A DNA stretch of 64,000 nt from Ignavibacteria bacterium (lineage in GTDB: Bacteria > Bacteroidota > Ignavibacteria > Kapaibacteriales > UBA961). The DNA is taken from positions 124,001-188,000 of the forward strand of contig CANLII010000001.1 of assembly GCA_947491315.1 (NCBI GenBank). Reading direction: 5' to 3'. The position numbers and the translations under genes were made by a program. The notes below the pieces were generated by a model that was given only the letters and a program-made list of their open reading frames with translations, was not told the origin of the DNA and did no database searches. Shown one piece after another: positions 5,777 through 23,414 of this stretch (position 1 is its first letter; every line of letters starts with the position of its first letter).

Positions 5777-7506
5777 TGTACCATTATGTTCATGTGCGAT
5801 TGAATTGCATTCACCACTGTTAATACTAATGTATCATCCAATGAAATCGCAATAGATAAGCGCTCATGTGTTTTTCTGATTTTTAATTCGAGTTGACCTT
5901 GTTGTAAGCCTTTTTCACCGACAATCAATTGAAAGGGTAATCCAATCAAATCTGCATCATTGAATTTAATTCCAGGAGATACATCGCGATCGTCGAATAG
6001 CACATCTATCCCTATTTTTTCTAATGCATCATGAATTTCATTGCATACCTTTACAGCTTCTTGGGATTTATGCAATCCAAGCCCAATCAAATGCACTGTA
6101 TATGGTGCAATTGATATTGGCCATGCGATCCCTTTTTCATCATGGTGTTGTTCAATCGCACATGCAATGATACGCTCAAGTCCGATTCCATAAGAACCCA
6201 TGATGATTGGTTGTTCTTTCCCGTGTTCATCTAGGAACACTGCATTCAATGCTTCGGAATATTTTGTTCCCAATTTGAAAATATGCCCAACCTCGATGGC
6301 ATTTACGATTCGAAGTGGATTTCCACCCGAAATGCATGGTTCTCCTTCGAGCACAGTTCTCACATCTACAAAAGCAGAAATTGTGCAATCTCTCTCAAGA
6401 TCGATATTCTTTATATGGAAACCATCTTTGTTTGCGCCGCTTACTAGACCATTTGCATGTTCAAGTAATGAATCAGCAAGAATCGTGATTTCTGATGAAA
6501 GACCTATCGGACCAATGGAACCGGCATGGGCACCTGTAAGCTCAAATAATTCTTCAGTTTCCGCGGGACGACATTGAGTACTCTTTACATAATTTTGGAA
6601 CTTGGCTTCATTCAATTGATCATTTCCACGCATCAAAATGAGATATGCTTTTGAATCTGCGATATAAACCACTGATTTTGCGCAACGATTTATATCAAGC
6701 CCAAATGCTGTTACAAGTTCATCAATCGTCTTTGCTCCGGGTGTTGCAAATTCTTCAATGGAATCAGTATTATCAATTCTTCCAATTGGATGTACAGCAC
6801 TTACTGCAACTTCAATATTAGCTGAATATCCTGATAATTCATCAATCACACATGTATCTTCGCCATAGGGTGATTCCACCATGAACTCTTGTGAAGCACT
6901 TCCACCCATTGCTCCGGAAGATGCACCAACAACAAAGAATTTTAATCCACAACGCTGATATATGTTTCGATAAGCAATTGCATGCAAGTCATAACTCTTA
7001 TCCAGACCCTCTTTTGAATTATCGAGAGAATAAGCATCTTTCATGGTGAACTGTCTGCCACGCAAAACGCCTGATTTCGGTCTTGGTTCATTGCGAAACT
7101 TCGTTTGTATCTGATACCAGATTTGCGGCATGTCTCGATATGATTTAATATGCTGTCTGGCATGATATGTCATGATTTCTTCATGAGTTGGTGCGAGTAC
7201 CAAACCATCACGATTCTTGATATGGAACATCACATCACCCATCGCTTCAACACGACCGGTTTGTTCCCAGATATCAATAGGACTCAAAGCGGGAAGATGA
7301 AACTCTTGCCCTCCAATCGCATCCATTTCCTGACGAATAATGTGTTGTACTTTTTTTAGAGATCTATATCCCAAAGGGAGCTGAGAAAAAATACCTGCAC
7401 CGAGTTGTCTGATAAGACCGGCTCGCAACATGAGAATATGCGATGGAATTTGCGCCTCTGAAGGCGCTTCTTTTAATGTTGGTATGAAAATCTTTGACTG
7501 AAGCAT
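5773..7506 (-). CDS. proS: Prolyl-tRNA synthetase (bacterial type)
   Basis: The product charges tRNA-Pro with proline. The 577-residue length and arrangement fit the bacterial type with an inserted editing domain. Class II motif 2 is seen at residues 138-160 (RNEPRPKSGVLRGRQFTMKDAYS region). Motif 3 is GSYGIGLERIIA followed by the EKGIAWP segment. The insertion between motifs 2 and 3 (about residues 220-400) corresponds to the Ala-tRNA-Pro editing domain. The C-terminus holds the anticodon-binding domain. It is first in a minus-strand group with the PHP gene and ribH. The assignment is secure. Confidence 0.97.
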   Translation of the reverse strand: MLQSKIFIPTLKEAPSEAQIPSHILMLRAGLIRQLGAGIFSQLPLGYRSLKKVQHIIRQEMDAIGGQEFHLPALSPIDIWEQTGRVEAMGDVMFHIKNRDGLVLAPTHEEIMTYHARQHIKSYRDMPQIWYQIQTKFRNEPRPKSGVLRGRQFTMKDAYSLDNSKEGLDKSYDLHAIAYRNIYQRCGLKFFVVGASSGAMGGSASQEFMVESPYGEDTCVIDELSGYSANIEVAVSAVHPIGRIDNTDSIEEFATPGAKTIDELVTAFGLDINRCAKSVVYIADSKAYLILMRGNDQLNEAKFQNYVKSTQCRPAETEELFELTGAHAGSIGPIGLSSEITILADSLLEHANGLVSGANKDGFHIKNIDLERDCTISAFVDVRTVLEGEPCISGGNPLRIVNAIEVGHIFKLGTKYSEALNAVFLDEHGKEQPIIMGSYGIGLERIIACAIEQHHDEKGIAWPISIAPYTVHLIGLGLHKSQEAVKVCNEIHDALEKIGIDVLFDDRDVSPGIKFNDADLIGLPFQLIVGEKGLQQGQLELKIRKTHERLSIAISLDDTLVLTVVNAIQSHMNIMVQ

Positions 7507-17880: not shown

Positions 17881-17901
17881 CATTTTACCAAGAAAAATGG
17901 C
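17881..17901. repeat. Left attachment site (attL), 21-bp direct repeat
   Basis: This 21-bp sequence begins cattttacc and ends aaaatggc. It recurs perfectly and in the same orientation at 23394-23414, and it marks the left boundary of the integrated element. Confidence 0.85.
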
Positions 17902-18074
17902 TATACCGTTGTAAGTCCTTATATTGCAATAAGTTAGTAAATTACAATATTGTAAAAGTACAAGAGGTATACAAGTAATAGATAGTATACCCCTTTGCAC
18001 CTACAAAATTACAAAATTTAGTCCTGTACTTCACCTGCTAAAGTTAGGTGTTTTCCGTTGTAGATCAGTTGTTA
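17902..18074. other. Left-end noncoding region of the element, possible integrase arm sites
   Basis: This AT-rich stretch holds ggtatacaagtaa at 17966-17978 and a second gtatac at 17985-17990. A near copy, ggtatacaaataaa, lies at the right end at 23260-23273. Shared motifs near both ends are what integrase arm-type binding sites would look like, but this is inference. Confidence 0.35.
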
Positions 18075-18398
18075 TTATTGAATGTCTCCTTTGTCTATAA
18101 CCTCTAATCTTTCGGCTTTACGAATATCTATGAAGTTACTTAGGTTTTGAGCAATTTCCATATGGTGCCAAGCACCCGATCTAATAACACTATCGATATA
18201 ACCGTGAATAGCAAACTTGTAATCTATACTCAAGACTTTAATCGCATCGATACCGTATAGCTCGCGATCTCGAAAACAAGGGTATTTTGCTTTGAATATA
18301 GTCTTGCAATCGTATATGTCGACAATAGTAAGCTCGTTAGTTTCTTGAATTTTCATAATTAATTCCCTCGGTAGTTCAATTGTTGGTAAAGGATCCAT
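18075..18398 (-). CDS. Hypothetical protein of the integrative element
   Basis: A 107-residue protein that I do not recognise. It has no signal peptide or membrane segment, several charged patches, and a short aromatic/hydrophobic core (YKFAIHGYIDSVIRSGAWHHME). It starts directly after the stop of the primase C-terminal fragment, so it is probably the last gene of the minus-strand operon HTH-primase-unknown. Small genes in this position in satellite-like elements are often accessory, but no function is claimed. Confidence 0.5.
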   Translation of the reverse strand: MDPLPTIELPRELIMKIQETNELTIVDIYDCKTIFKAKYPCFRDRELYGIDAIKVLSIDYKFAIHGYIDSVIRSGAWHHMEIAQNLSNFIDIRKAERLEVIDKGDIQ

Positions 18399-18870
18399 TT
18401 AATTGTCTCCTTCAAAAAATTCAAATCTTTGTAAAATAGCTTCACTTTCTTCACTTTCTTCACAGTCAGCTTCAGAGTGTGAATGATGTGAATGAAGTGA
18501 GGCCGGTATAGAATCCTTTATTTTTTCTATGTATACTATCATTCCATCTCTTTTCTTTTCTATCAAGTACCCTTGCTTTTTCAACCTATCAGAAAAGGTA
18601 CGCTTTGAACATGTACGGTACATGCTTTCAATACAATACTCTTTGTACCAATCAAATAAGGTCTTAAATGGTAAAAACAAGTTAAGCTTTGAAGGTTGAT
18701 ACATGGTTTCATGTAAAAACATTCTTACTGTATCGCTTTCAAGTTGATATTGCTTAACAGCATTTTCTGCAGCATCGCATTTTGTAAAGTTTCCTCTCTC
18801 TAGGAGATCAAGAAGGGCTTTTACTATCAAGTTAAGTATACCAGAAAGCTCGCTTTCAGAGATCTTAATA
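18399..18870 (-). pseudogene. C-terminal fragment of a P4/D5-type primase-helicase
   Basis: Read on the minus strand, this frame gives ELSGILNLIVKALLDLLERG, the conserved segment (E-x-x-GILN) that opens the C-terminal part of phage/plasmid P4-family primases. ENAVKQYQLESDTVRMFL and the winged-helix-like region (PFKTLFDWYKEYC, SKRTFSDRLKKQGY) follow. The frame has no good start: the open frame begins at TTG 18830, inside the conserved motif. The helicase core that should precede it is missing, so the gene is a remnant of the same gene as 18827-19165. The C-terminus is followed by a low-complexity Ser/His/Glu tail. Confidence 0.68.
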
Positions 18871-19165
18871 TGAAGCTCTTTAGTAGGTCAGGGGGTACTT
18901 CAGACCAATAGAAACCGTTGTATAGATATACATTCCCATTGTTTATACATAGGTTCCAATTATTGACTTTAGCAAGCTTCAGTATTTCATCAATGGATAT
19001 GACAAGTGCTTGACTATTTTTAAGCTTAAAATCTTGATCTCCTTTAGGGTTTGCAATAGCTAGGAAATCAACCGGCTTGACTTGAGAAAGTAGCCCCTTA
19101 AGAATATTATTTGTACTTTTGTATTGACTAGATACAGAAATTTGGGGGTTGTTTATGGTACTCAT
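18827..19165 (-). pseudogene. N-terminal fragment of a P4/D5-type primase-helicase
   Basis: The ATG at 19165 overlaps the excisionase-like gene stop as ATGA. The 112-residue product contains LAKVNNWNLCINNGNVYLYN followed by GFYW. This is the N-terminal signature of D5/P4 primases (alternating strands ending Y-N-G-x-Y-W). The frame then ends after about 25 further residues, at a TGA that overlaps the TTG of the C-terminal fragment. About 250 residues of helicase with Walker motifs are absent. This points to an internal deletion plus frame change, with the junction near 18860-18890. A protein could still be made, but not a working primase. Confidence 0.65.
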
Positions 19166-19515
19166 TGCAGCCCCCTCTTTTCCATCGCTTCGCTTTGCAC
19201 CTCTGCATAGGTTTTCTTCTTTCCTAGCTTCAACCATTGATCAATTTCAGACTTCAGAAAGCGAAGCCTCTTACCGCTTTTGTGTACCGGTACTTTCCTA
19301 GTATGTACCCATTGATAAACGGTGTGCTTAGTAGGTTTGTCAGGGTGGTAAATACAAAGCTCTGTTAAGCTTAACCATTGATCAGCATTGATATGCTGCA
19401 GGTCTGTAGGTCTTTCCATCAAAAGAGCTTTAACCTCTTTGACTTCTTGAGTGAGAAATGAGATAGCTATAGGTAGCTTCTCGAGTGTGAGAAATTCTGC
19501 ATTGGTATTTTCCAT
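19162..19515 (-). CDS. Excisionase-family helix-turn-helix DNA-binding protein
   Basis: A 117-residue protein with a C-terminal MerR-like/HTH_17 domain: WLSLTELCIYHPDKPTKHTVYQWVHTRKVPVHKSGKRLRF, then LKSEIDQWL. This matches small excisionases and AlpA-like regulators that bend DNA at att sites or activate integrase and primase genes. It is first in the minus-strand group of the element and is coupled to the primase remnant by ATGA. A 9-bp inverted repeat lies about 65 bases upstream and could be its operator. The HTH call is firm; an excision role is inferred from context. Confidence 0.78.
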   Translation of the reverse strand: MENTNAEFLTLEKLPIAISFLTQEVKEVKALLMERPTDLQHINADQWLSLTELCIYHPDKPTKHTVYQWVHTRKVPVHKSGKRLRFLKSEIDQWLKLGKKKTYAEVQSEAMEKRGLQ

Positions 19516-19580
19516 TGCATCCTCTTGTATGGTATAAGTAAATAAAAATTACACAGCAATATTAAGTACATACCAAAGAG

Positions 19581-19612
19581 ACTTAGAAAATATATTTTAT
19601 TTATTTCTAAGT
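19581..19612. promoter_or_regulatory. Inverted repeat upstream of the excisionase-like gene
   Basis: Perfect 9-bp arms (acttagaaa and tttctaagt) are separated by 14 AT-rich bases. The repeat lies in the divergent control region between the HTH gene (minus) and the first FISUMP gene (plus). It could be an operator or a cruciform; there is no adjacent T-run in a sensible place for a terminator. Confidence 0.4.
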
Positions 19613-19705
19613 ATATGCAAAGAAAGGACTTGTAAAGGCAAATGTGGAAAATGGTGCAAAGTTGATTTTTAAAAAAGAATTATGAATAAAAAAAAAGGGT
19701 CAAAA

Positions 19706-19737
19706 TTGCAGTTTTATACGCTCTGCAGCTATATTTG
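19706..19737 (+). promoter_or_regulatory. Possible Bacteroidota-type promoter of the first FISUMP gene
   Basis: TATATTTG at 19730-19737 matches the TAnnTTTG -7 consensus. A TTG lies 21 bases upstream, slightly longer than the usual spacing. The core atacgctctgcag of the repeated units falls between the two boxes. Confidence 0.35.
19716..19728. repeat. 13-bp core repeat atacgctctgcag, copy A
   Basis: First of three identical 13-bp copies (19716, 20610, 22132). They bracket the two FISUMP units, and the third copy lies inside the integrase 3' end. Confidence 0.75.
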
Positions 19738-19781
19738 TAATACATTGTTTATTAACACGCAAAATGATAAAGAGGAAAACT

Positions 19782-20480
19782 ATGAGATTATGTTATTCAA
19801 TAATAAGTTGTGTACTATTCTTGTTTGTTGGTTGTAAGGATACTTCGTCAACAATTAACCCCGATGATACTACATTAAATGATAGTACTTTTACAGATAT
19901 ACGGGATGAAAAAAAATACGGACTTGTAAAAATTAATACACAAGTTTGGATGTCTGAAAACCTAAATGCAAGTACATATCGTAATGGAGATATCATCCGT
20001 CATGCAAGCACAAAACAAGAATGGCTAGATGCTGCAGGTAGAGGAGAGGGAGCTTGGTGTTATTATGATCACGACCCTAAGAATGGTGCAATATATGGCA
20101 AGCTGTATAATTGGTATGCTGTAAAAGATTCTAGAGGCCTTGCACCAAAGGGTTATCATATCCCTAATGATGCAGAATGGACTATCCTTACAGACTTTTT
20201 AGGGGGAGAATCCGTAGCAGGCAAAAAGATAAAGAGTACAAGCGGATGGGATAATGGTGACAATGGAGATAATAGTAGTGGATTTAATGGTCTGCCGGGC
20301 GGTGACTGTGACAGCAGTGGATATTTCTACGATAGGACTGAGGACGGTGGCTTTTGGAGTTCTTCAGAGTATAGTACAGGTGATGCTTGGGGTCGCTTTC
20401 TGTACGGTAATTATGCGAGAGTAAGCAGGTACTACGATAATAAGAATAGTGGCTTGTCTGTTCGTTGCCTGAGGGATTAG
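19782..20480 (+). CDS. FISUMP-domain lipoprotein
   Basis: A 232-residue exported protein with one Fibrobacter succinogenes major paralogous (FISUMP) domain, a C-type-lectin-like fold. The ATG at 19782 is preferred over 19764 because AGAGGA precedes it. A lipobox LFVGC ends the signal peptide. The domain (about residues 45-232) shows WMSENLN, WCYYDHDP, YGKLYNWYAV, RGLAPKGYHIP, FNGLPGG, WSSSEYS and the terminal SVRCLRD. The function of the domain is not established; ligand binding at the cell surface is plausible. Many variable C-terminal codons are of the form NNT/NNC. The gene is cargo of the integrative element and shares a 160-bp 3' block with the next FISUMP gene. Confidence 0.85.
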   Translation: MRLCYSIISCVLFLFVGCKDTSSTINPDDTTLNDSTFTDIRDEKKYGLVKINTQVWMSENLNASTYRNGDIIRHASTKQEWLDAAGRGEGAWCYYDHDPKNGAIYGKLYNWYAVKDSRGLAPKGYHIPNDAEWTILTDFLGGESVAGKKIKSTSGWDNGDNGDNSSGFNGLPGGDCDSSGYFYDRTEDGGFWSSSEYSTGDAWGRFLYGNYARVSRYYDNKNSGLSVRCLRD

Positions 20481-20520
20481 TCCCTTTGCCCCTTTTGTGG
20501 GGTTTGGGGCGAAGCCCCAA
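20472..20520 (+). terminator. Tandem hairpins after the first FISUMP gene
   Basis: A 5-bp hairpin (aggga-ttag-tccct) overlaps the stop codon. It is followed at 20504-20520 by a 7-bp stem (ttggggc / gccccaa) closed by a gaa loop, the unusually stable GCGAAGC type. No T-run follows, so termination is only one possibility; a recombination or retrohoming signal is another. Confidence 0.5.
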
Positions 20521-20609
20521 CGAATTGGAGAAAGACGTACTTTGTTACTTGTTCTAATCTCTTAATTCAGTTCGCTGTATTAAAGAAAAACTTTCAAAAA
20601 ATCAATACT

Positions 20610-20622
20610 ATACGCTCTGCAG
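20610..20622. repeat. 13-bp core repeat atacgctctgcag, copy B
   Basis: Second core copy, about 46 bases before the second FISUMP start. It is the right end of long repeat copy 1. Confidence 0.75.
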
Positions 20623-20667
20623 TATTAATTGTAGTATAATATTTAAGTAATCAAAAAAGGGTTAATC

Positions 20668-22005
20668 ATGAAATACCTACTTACCTTATTACTTGCTGCT
20701 GTGTTTTCATCTGCAGCATTCTCACAATCAGAAGTAAAGATTGGCAAACAAATATGGATGACTAAGAATTTGGATGTGAGTATTTTTCGAAATGGAGAAA
20801 CTATAACACAAGCAATGAACATGAATGATTGGAGAAAAGCATCTCAAAATAAGAAAGCGGCATGGTGTTATTATGATTTTGATTCTAAAAAAGGACAAAA
20901 ATATGGAAAGTTGTATAACTGGTATGCTGTAAGTGATAAGAGAGGTTTAGCACCAGAAGGGTATCACGTTCCGAGTGAGCAAGAATGGAATCAGCTCCTA
21001 AACTACGAAAGTATTGGAGGTGAAAATACTGCTGGGAGGATTCTAAAAAGTAAAACAGGTTGGACTGTAAAAACGAAAAATAAAACGGAAAATAATGGCG
21101 GAGGAATTGATAAAGTTGGATTTAACGCACTTCCTGGTGGAGGAATTGTTCATACAAATACTGGTACTGAATTTATTTTTGAAGGTTATGGTTTCATAGG
21201 TATTTGGTGGAGTACAACATTAGATTCCGAATATTCTTTAGAAGATTCACTGATATTTACCAAACATATGTATAATCATAATGAAGTACAGAGTTTTAGT
21301 CATCCAAAATATGATGGATTTTCTGTTATTTGTATCAAAGACTCTGATTTATATATTCCTACCCTTAAAAGTAAAAACACTGATTTAAATGTGATTGCAA
21401 ATGGTGAGTCCACACCAACTGTCAAAATTGGCAATCAAGTGTGGATGGCGAAGAATTTGGATGTAACTACTTTCCGAAATGGGGATATAATTCTAGAAGT
21501 AAAGAATGCCCAAGAATTGAAAGAGGCAAGTGAAAAAAACACACCTGCATGGTGCTATTACGAGTTTAATGAAAGTAATGGAAAGAAATATGGCAAGCTC
21601 TATAATCGTCCTGCTGTAAGTGATCCTAGAGGTTTAGCACCAGAAGGATATCATATTCCTAAAAATATAGAGTGGGATGAGCTAACAGTCTTTTTAGGAG
21701 ATCCTGGCGGATCTATAGTTGCCGGAAAAAAGATGAAGAGCATAAGTGGATGGGCTAACAATACTAATGGAAATAATATTAGTAGATTTAATGGTCTGCC
21801 GGGCGGAAAGTGTCAGGGTAGACATAGTAATTTCACAGGAGTTACTGAAGATTCTTATTGGCAAGCTGGTTATTGGTGGGGATCTCATGAGGATATTGAA
21901 GGTAAAGGCTTGTGGTGTAGACAGTTGCATTCAGGTAATTCGCTAAGGGTGAGTTACTACATAGATTATGAAGAATGGTTATCAGTTCGTTGCCTGAGGG
22001 ATTAG
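20668..22005 (+). CDS. Secreted protein with two FISUMP domains
   Basis: A 445-residue exported protein. A signal peptide (residues 1-19, ending AFS) is followed by two FISUMP domains at about 22-228 and 248-445. Each shows the VKIG-x-QxWM-x-KNLD opening, an AWCYY segment, YGKLYN, RGLAPEGYH(V/I)P and a closing C-x-(K/R)-D. The first domain ends SVICIKD and the second SVRCLRD. Domain 2 shares a 20-base exactly conserved stretch (encoding FNGLPGG) and the last codons with the single-domain gene upstream, yet differs strongly between these blocks. It is element cargo with no known enzymatic role. An ATG preceded by AAGGG supports the start. Confidence 0.85.
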   Translation: MKYLLTLLLAAVFSSAAFSQSEVKIGKQIWMTKNLDVSIFRNGETITQAMNMNDWRKASQNKKAAWCYYDFDSKKGQKYGKLYNWYAVSDKRGLAPEGYHVPSEQEWNQLLNYESIGGENTAGRILKSKTGWTVKTKNKTENNGGGIDKVGFNALPGGGIVHTNTGTEFIFEGYGFIGIWWSTTLDSEYSLEDSLIFTKHMYNHNEVQSFSHPKYDGFSVICIKDSDLYIPTLKSKNTDLNVIANGESTPTVKIGNQVWMAKNLDVTTFRNGDIILEVKNAQELKEASEKNTPAWCYYEFNESNGKKYGKLYNRPAVSDPRGLAPEGYHIPKNIEWDELTVFLGDPGGSIVAGKKMKSISGWANNTNGNNISRFNGLPGGKCQGRHSNFTGVTEDSYWQAGYWWGSHEDIEGKGLWCRQLHSGNSLRVSYYIDYEEWLSVRCLRD

Positions 22006-22025
22006 TCCCTTTGCCCCTTTGGGGT

Positions 22026-22042
22026 TTGGGGCGAAGCCCCAA
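22026..22042 (+). terminator. Stable GAA-loop hairpin after the second FISUMP gene
   Basis: A 7-bp stem (ttggggc / gccccaa) with a gaa loop lies about 20 bases after the stop codon, identical to the hairpin behind the first FISUMP gene. It sits between two convergent genes and could stop transcription in both directions, although there is no T-run. Confidence 0.45.
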
Positions 22043-22115
22043 CGAATTGGAGAAAGACGTACTTTATTACTTGTTCTAATCTCTGAATTCAGTTCGCTGT
22101 ATTAAAGAAAAACTT

Positions 22116-23213
22116 TCAAAATTTCAATACAATACGCTCTGCAGCTTCTCTCTTTGACTTGTCTACTATCTTAGCATAGACTTGAGTAGTGGTTAAATTA
22201 CGGTGCCCCAACATTTTCGAGACTGTATAAATATCAGTGCCCGCCTCAAGTTGAAGAGTTGCATAGGTATGGCGAAAACAATGAAATGAAATATCTTTCT
22301 TTATACCTGCAGCATTGATCCACTTCTTGAGGTGCCCCTTCGAAGTAGAGTAAGAGATAGGATCGAAAACTCTAGTATTTCCACTTTGTACACTACCTAG
22401 AAATGAATAAGCTTGCTCTGAAATAGGTAGGACTTCAACCTTTTTAGTCTTCCTTTGAGTGAAGTGTATAGAGTAGCCTTCGCTTGTATGTACTTCATTC
22501 CATTCCAATTTTACTATATCAGACCATCTTAAACCGGTCAATGCTGAAAGGAAAGCCATACGCTTGAGTGTATCGCTTTTACATTCTGCTTTAACAAGCT
22601 TTTGAAGTTCTTCAAGTGTGAGGTATTGTCTTTCAGTATCCTCAAATTTAAGTGCTTGTACTTTAGTGCTTAGATCGGTCTGCATATACCCCTCTTTGTA
22701 AGATCTTCTTAAAGAGGCTTTGAAGCGGTCAAAATAGATCTTTGCACTATTTGGTGTGAGGCTTCTTTTTGGATCAGCTAGGTAGCTTCTAAACTGTATA
22801 CAGAGCTTTTCAGTAAGATCGGAAAACTTTAAGCCTTTAGGTGCAAAGTCCTTTAAGTGTATCAAAGTAGCATTGTCGGTGTGAATGGATCGGGTTTTAT
22901 TGAAGTAATCAATGAAGTCCTTTTCTCCTAGCTTCTTAATCTCAAGCCTTTCAATTTCAAAGTCAGAGTATACCTCTAGTTTATTAAGATCATTCTCTCG
23001 GTTGATCTTTACCTGCTTTGCAATTTCCTCTCTTTGCTTGTTTTCCTCTTTCTCGAAATAGTCTGCAGGCTTTTCATGTAAGTAGATACCTAAGAACTCT
23101 CTTCTTGTAAGTTTACCGGTGCCTTTAGGATCGGGAACTGCAGGGTAAAAGTCTAGATATAACGAAACCCGCCCGCCTGAAATTTTCTTCTTTCTTAAAG
23201 TAACTTTGACCAT
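22116..23213 (-). CDS. Tyrosine recombinase/integrase of the element
   Basis: A 365-residue integrase with an N-terminal arm-binding part, a SAM-like core-binding domain (about residues 100-195) and a catalytic domain (about 200-365). The catalytic residues are visible: Arg in LTGLRWSDIV, the H-x-x-R in SFHCFRHTYA, and the H and nucleophile Tyr in MLGHRNLTTTQVYAKI. The type is common in Bacteroidota genomic islands. Its start lies 181 bases from the right att site, the usual arrangement. The last ten codons are shared with the long direct repeats behind the FISUMP genes, so the gene end has been involved in rearrangement. Activity looks intact. Confidence 0.93.
   Translation of the reverse strand: MVKVTLRKKKISGGRVSLYLDFYPAVPDPKGTGKLTRREFLGIYLHEKPADYFEKEENKQREEIAKQVKINRENDLNKLEVYSDFEIERLEIKKLGEKDFIDYFNKTRSIHTDNATLIHLKDFAPKGLKFSDLTEKLCIQFRSYLADPKRSLTPNSAKIYFDRFKASLRRSYKEGYMQTDLSTKVQALKFEDTERQYLTLEELQKLVKAECKSDTLKRMAFLSALTGLRWSDIVKLEWNEVHTSEGYSIHFTQRKTKKVEVLPISEQAYSFLGSVQSGNTRVFDPISYSTSKGHLKKWINAAGIKKDISFHCFRHTYATLQLEAGTDIYTVSKMLGHRNLTTTQVYAKIVDKSKREAAERIVLKF
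22132..22144. repeat. 13-bp core repeat atacgctctgcag, copy C
   Basis: Third core copy, inside the integrase coding end, where it encodes part of the C-terminal AAERI segment on the minus strand. Confidence 0.75.
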
Positions 23214-23217
23214 TTTC

Positions 23218-23273
23218 TTTGTACCTCATTTTGTACCTCAAATTAAGAAAGGTACAAATGGTATACAAATAAA
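23218..23273. repeat. Clustered short repeats between integrase and attR, possible arm-type binding sites
   Basis: Two copies of tttgtacctca (23218-23228 and 23230-23240) are followed by the inverted form aggtacaaa (23250-23258) and then ggtatacaaataaa. The last motif nearly repeats at the left end (17966). Position next to the integrase and the mixed orientation suggest integrase or excisionase binding sites. Confidence 0.45.
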
Positions 23274-23393
23274 CCATAAAAAAGCCTATATCAAGTAAAA
23301 GTACAGAACAATGTATAAAATAGAAAAGCATGAATAAATCAGGCTTGTAGGGTGTTTTCTAATAGTTTTTTACCACTTTGTTTTTATGGTTAA

Positions 23394-23414
23394 CATTTTA
23401 CCAAGAAAAATGGC
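23394..23414. repeat. Right attachment site (attR), 21-bp direct repeat
   Basis: Perfect copy of 17881-17901. On the minus strand it contains the T-rich tail of the terminator at 23407-23434, so the integration target is a terminator. Confidence 0.85.

Follow-up and report, generated by a model that had tools for sequence, protein, structure and literature searches.

The stretch of DNA analyzed here (the window) is 64,000 nucleotides from an Ignavibacteria bacterium (GCA_947491315.1, contig CANLII010000001.1, positions 124,001 to 188,000). It contains a 5.5-kb integrative element in which two FISUMP genes, F1 and F2, are located between a gene for an excisionase-like helix-turn-helix (HTH) protein and the 3' end of a tyrosine integrase gene. 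Because an element in a related species carries a differently filled row of genes facing its integrase, such surface-protein genes seem to be traded as units. The reading we prefer, to which we give an even chance, is that the array is a turnover zone of exported lectin-like gene units (FISUMP, Lcl_C), and that units are exchanged by recombination at short shared sequences instead of by the integrase cutting at a 13-bp sequence repeated in the array.

The window's own genome (G000) was compared with congeners including G001, G002 and G006. All compared genomes are drafts, and the comparison is between species of one genus, not within one population. An intact empty site was found in two congeners: when the flanks of the element were joined, they aligned without interruption to G006 (81%, 1.8 kb) and to G002 (70%). 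Therefore, 17881-23414 is a precisely inserted element. A core catalytic domain in the integrase, direct-repeat ends (CATTTTACCAAGAAAAATGGC) and an empty site in relatives were all found, as expected of a tyrosine-recombinase element.

The 13-mer ATACGCTCTGCAG was confirmed as exact copies at 19716, 20610 and 22132, with no other zero-mismatch copy in the 64 kb, and the spacings of 894 and 1522 bp agreed with the two units of about 0.9 and 1.5 kb in the original prediction. Each unit had been said to hold one FISUMP gene; the two genes are there, and the second has two FISUMP domains. Both genes exceeded the curated cut-offs of PF09603 (154 and 239 bits against 33.9) and TIGR02145 (142 and 174 against 41.65). 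The near-identical block of 160-163 bp was also recovered, as two composite blocks with 157 identities, 6 mismatches and one 3-nt gap (96%). The bodies just upstream of the blocks (19905-20456 in F1 and 21400-21981 in the second domain of F2) share 361 identities with 183 mismatches (66%), so the coding regions are strongly diverged, as claimed. Contrary to 13-mer copies 2 and 3, copy 1 does not have the block ahead of it and is preceded by just about 65 bp at 72% similarity.

Each block is a composite. It opens with a 3' tail peculiar to FISUMP genes, made of their final eight codons, the stop and hairpins; a linker and the fossil 3' end of a second FISUMP gene follow, and the ten final codons of the integrase close it. 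The genuine FISUMP end reads SVRCLRD* (asterisk, stop) and lies at 20457 and 21982; hairpins were predicted after it, in the noncoding part of the block (z = -2.9). About 110 bp beyond the genuine end, at 20567 and 22089, lies the fossil end SVRCIKEKL, which has lost its stop codon; the integrase's ten final codons, in which the 13-mer is found, stand immediately after it. The integrase stop is at 22116 on the minus strand, and 22116-22144 hold its last nine codons and the stop. The fossil ends and the 21-bp ends of the element had been overlooked previously. The fossil ends show that units were added beside the integrase, where the original prediction had placed a cassette array.

A 74-bp query of tail and hairpin was run against 14 genomes of the family. 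All substantial matches were FISUMP 3' ends: the window has two, contig C14 of G001 two, its contig C12 one and its contig C21 a partial one. The sole other match across the 14 genomes was a single 19-bp hairpin match. The hairpin tail is thus a property of FISUMP genes in the genus, also where no integrase is seen nearby, whereas the part with the 13-mer belongs to the element. An Rfam scan gave nothing over a gathering score, and neither the tail DNA nor the junction pattern was matched exactly in viral contigs.

In a tree of FISUMP domains, F1 clustered with the FISUMP genes at tRNA-Phe described below (support 100/98) and with neither domain of F2, though the two genes have the 3' block in common. 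The tRNA-Phe FISUMP bodies are near-identical in G000 and G001 but their tails differ, being SVRCIKD* without the GC hairpin in G000 and SVRCLRD* with the hairpin in G001. Therefore, tails were exchanged independently of bodies. Gene bodies and tails have different histories. One FISUMP gene of G002, G2b, was considered as a mosaic with a front like F2 and a back like F1; it lies on a very short branch and resembles everything, and no mosaic is claimed.

The lectin fold of FISUMP proteins is taken from family knowledge and the literature and not from a model of F1, whose structure prediction was of low confidence (mean pLDDT, the predicted local distance difference test, 37.5). A sequence search of the PDB gave nothing convincing, and F1 had no relative among viral contigs.

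A related element was found in G002, with an integrase 69% identical to that of the window. It is inserted at another site, adjoining folC, where G006 and G000 have tRNA-Thr and its terminator. The array facing the 3' end of its integrase has at least three genes in the order FISUMP-FISUMP-Lcl_C (DUF1566)-integrase, and the contig (C123) starts in the tail of one further FISUMP gene. Gene content therefore differs in this one close relative, an Lcl_C gene standing instead of a FISUMP gene; variable content was what the original prediction had proposed to check. The FISUMP genes of this array end in SVRCIKD*, and a fossil SVRCIKD* was found behind the Lcl_C stop, immediately ahead of the integrase end, indicating that the Lcl_C gene was placed in front of an older FISUMP end. 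This Lcl_C gene is 89% identical in DNA over 602 bp to an Lcl_C gene on contig C39 of G000, and the match starts inside the signal-peptide region and ends a few bases beyond the stop. At the outermost junction (J1) of the G002 array, 31 of 34 bp match the integrase end of the window (score 53, shuffle maximum 25), and the score against its own integrase end is 21. Given integrases that are 74% identical in DNA, the chance of such a match is about 0.01, so this 34-bp sequence was probably kept by exchange or constraint. The left part of the window element was, a short junction match aside, not found in G002.

FISUMP genes were also found as units outside the element. Both G000 (contig C40) and G001 (contig C12) have tRNA-Phe followed by a FISUMP gene. 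The two contigs are homologous from the tRNA as far as a point where the 3' half of the tRNA-Phe terminator occurs a second time. Between the two species the unit is 91% identical and reaches 99-100% in three 100-bp windows in a row, against 67% for the neighbouring region upstream and 48% for the TPR protein. G006 has a single terminator copy at this place, which represents the empty site, and no FISUMP was found in G006. A single FISUMP gene thus behaves as a repeat-bounded unit of about 1 kb at tRNA-Phe, and this movement of FISUMP genes as single-gene units elsewhere in the genus supports the original prediction in part. The unit adjoins a gene for a Laminin_G_3/SprB-repeat protein with a Por secretion tail (L040:1519-3492), and a short open reading frame (ORF) at the same G001 site (L060:5485-5991) has an N-terminus that looks similar to this protein by eye.

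Two more FISUMP loci have no integrase nearby: an Lcl_C gene with a FISUMP gene in G000 (L041:430-2459), and a tandem FISUMP array in G001 (L058:1-1693), which is broken by contig ends and has repeated 3' regions of 89% identity. In G001, contigs C21 and C14 both break off within FISUMP genes. Each locus is followed by a gene of unknown family (L041:430-1155 and L058:1181-1693), and the two are alike by eye.

The remaining genes of the window element are listed in Table 1. An intact D5/P4 primase-helicase was not found in the element: one C-terminal piece matches, and the adjoining short ORF matches no family. Because the element has the C-terminal piece of the primase, together with short ORFs, its replication gene looks decayed. 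The HTH gene also matches the model of the MADS defence protein MAD1, slightly under the cut-off (67.7 against 80 bits).

Table 1. Features of the window element, the tRNA-Phe units and the G041 element
Feature	Position	Strand	Remark
Integrative element, 5.5 kb	17881..23414		Inserted upstream of TPR gene, at transcription-terminator-like hairpin
Left end repeat, att-like, CATTTTACCAAGAAAAATGGC	17881..17901		Exact 21-bp direct repeat
Right end repeat, att-like, identical to left, CATTTTACCAAGAAAAATGGC	23394..23414		Exact 21-bp direct repeat
Possible integrase arm-type site pair	17954..17978 and 23248-23272		25-bp direct repeat, 84% identical, just inside each end; putative function
P4/D5-type primase, C-terminal piece	18399..18830	-	TIGR01613 and Pox_D5 C-terminal matches; remainder of protein not in ORF
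Short ORF, possible N-terminal remnant of same primase	18827..19237	-	By position and overlap alone; without family match
Excisionase-like HTH protein	19162..19515	-	HTH_17, TIGR01764 excise, phrog_66
13-mer copy 1, outermost junction J1	19716..19728	+	31 bp resembles integrase end; score 37 against shuffle maximum 26
FISUMP gene F1, predicted lipoprotein (LFVGC, by eye)	19764..20480	+	PF09603 E 6.7e-45
Composite block 1: FISUMP tail with its stop, then hairpins, a linker, a fossil FISUMP 3' end at 20567 and the integrase-end copy that contains the 13-mer	20457..20622	+	
FISUMP gene F2, two FISUMP domains	20668..22005	+	PF09603 in two stretches, E 5.4e-71
Composite block 2, built like block 1	21982..22144	+	Final 29 bp are integrase codons
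Tyrosine integrase	22116..23213	-	Arm-DNA-bind_5, SAM_5, Phage_integrase; PF00589 E 1.7e-24; PHROG integrase families
FISUMP unit of about 1 kb at tRNA-Phe, bounded by terminator-half copies	L040:54-1189; L060 around 6038-7210		Two species have the unit, the third is without it
G041 element, 3.3 kb, related integrase at tRNA-Pro	L130:4273-7606 (G041 C514)		Ends are 25-bp tRNA-end repeat

In the reading we prefer, the space between the excisionase-like gene and the integrase 3' end would be a cargo bay that hosts turnover of FISUMP and Lcl_C units, each made up of a gene body, the tail at its 3' end and a short stretch copied from the end of the integrase gene. Units would be added, duplicated or replaced where FISUMP 3' ends and integrase-end copies provide short shared sequences for recombination. 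Homologous or short-repeat recombination is the most likely engine; a circular unit could, for instance, enter through one crossover at the integrase end, and such recombination would leave the scars observed there. An enzyme carrying out the recombination is presumed, and binding of surface ligands may be the reason why the genes are selected. Several points weigh against this explanation. The array was seen in two elements only, both in one genus, and the G002 contig begins inside the array. Of the three intergenic junctions of G002, J3 matches an integrase end weakly (19 of 1000 shuffles as good, or about 2%) and J2 shows no match. Neither a circle nor a reciprocal product was seen, and the circular forms are a supposition. 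Some of the pattern could stem from tandem duplication with a coding part that evolved fast.

Plain tandem duplication is the strongest of the rival explanations, although we regard it as somewhat unlikely. One FISUMP unit between 13-mer copies would have been duplicated; diversifying selection would then have acted on the coding part, and the tail would have changed slowly or undergone gene conversion. The integrase-free tandem array of G001 with its similar 3' regions is consistent with this, as is the same fossil with a lost stop codon in both window blocks. The bodies of F1 and F2 are, however, not sisters, the G002 array includes an Lcl_C gene, and conversion or replacement is needed to account for a noncoding block that is 96% identical next to bodies that are 66% identical.

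The integrase itself, or an Xer enzyme, might recombine units at a site within the integrase 3' end, as in a site-specific cassette system. The layout agrees with this, and the 34-bp sequence is conserved in several junctions and across species. The junction containing the 13-mer, however, showed no resemblance to the att core of the element, which lies elsewhere (599 of 1000 shuffles as good), and G002 junctions 2 and 3 barely retain the sequence. The integrase is of the phage type with an arm-binding domain and not of the IntI type, its TIGR02249 score of 60 bits being far under the cut-off of 265. Among 114 integrase relatives, integrase-end repeats had no clear excess downstream of the integrase (7, against 4 for an internal control window), and there is no family-wide rule of such repeats. 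Of the proposed cassette array, the location is supported; the integrase or a cassette-type site as its driver is not.

A true parallel was present among the 7, in a distantly related element of G041. Its cargo, a TumE toxin pair and a DUF433/DUF5615 pair, both toxin-antitoxin-like, is separated by a copy of the integrase 3' end (63 bp at 73%, within which 31 bp at 90%), and the TumE pair bounded in this manner favors a cassette site. Another case with multiple copies, on a viral contig (L196:7816-8490), was rejected as a cassette, since TTCGGTGACTGAGCGAAGCCGAAGTCAC is a dispersed REP-like repeat, one copy of which overlaps the integrase stop. An integrase search of the GTDB contig collection gave one distant match and a first search of viral contigs gave none; with a profile search, viral integrases of up to 52% identity were obtained, and no FISUMP or Lcl_C genes were present at the viral integrase loci checked. 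We consider site-specific recombination of units at the integrase end unlikely. A non-integron cassette system with its recombination site inside the integrase's own final codons, in which each captured gene bears a copy and new surface-protein genes always load beside the integrase, is in our estimate a little less probable again.

It is very doubtful that the array arose by accretion of successive related elements, with the integrase-end copies as remains of older integrase genes. The G041 copy, just 73% identical as if from another integrase, and G002 J1, closer to the window integrase than to its own, would fit. The window copies, however, reach no further than roughly the ten final codons, the space between units showed no other integrase remnant, and the fossil is the same in both full copies.

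The targets of diversity-generating retroelements (DGRs) are marked by a constant 3' end with a hairpin behind it. That the constant tail and hairpins of the window are a DGR relic is hardly credible: FISUMP and DUF1566/Lcl_C are known variable-protein domains of DGRs and similar to each other (PMC4159848), but no reverse transcriptase was found in the own genome or the six congeners searched, and the tail search of 14 genomes gave no template repeat carrying the tail, all substantial copies being FISUMP 3' ends. As far as the assembled genomes go, DGR activity is excluded.

Bacteria diversify exported lectin-like proteins through DGRs, phase variation and recombination of paralogs. In this genus, in which no DGR was found, members of the same families appear to be exchanged as whole genes. 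Their landing places would be the cargo bay of a small integrative element and a separate site at tRNA-Phe. If confirmed, this would be another route to spread and swap exported lectin-like genes. It would also show how an array of genes that is not an integron can arise next to an integrase.

Compared with known systems, the array shares its domains with DGR variable proteins (PMC4159848), but neither reverse transcriptase nor template repeat was found. As in XerCD pdif modules (PMC12907356), short recombination sites flank genes in units without their own recombinase, but no dif-like site was identified here, and no comparison with the dif of the lineage was made. Integrons resemble the array in having mostly single-gene units beside a tyrosine recombinase gene and a content that varies between relatives. 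In contrast to integrons, the window array lies at the 3' end of the integrase and faces it, the repeats are integrase codons and FISUMP tails with no recognisable attC (junctions read by eye), the integrase is phage-type with an arm-binding domain, and the cargo is confined to lectin-like families. P4-type phage satellites and small integrative elements share the integrase, the excisionase-like regulator, the D5/P4 primase, direct-repeat ends and insertion near terminators or tRNA genes; here, however, the primase is apparently truncated and a FISUMP cargo bay is bounded by integrase-end copies. Like tycheposons or cargo-only tRNA islands (term from PMC10872708), the FISUMP unit of C40 and C12 lies beside a tRNA, between direct repeats and without an integrase, but it is a single gene of about 1 kb, and its repeat is part of the tRNA-Phe terminator instead of the tRNA end.

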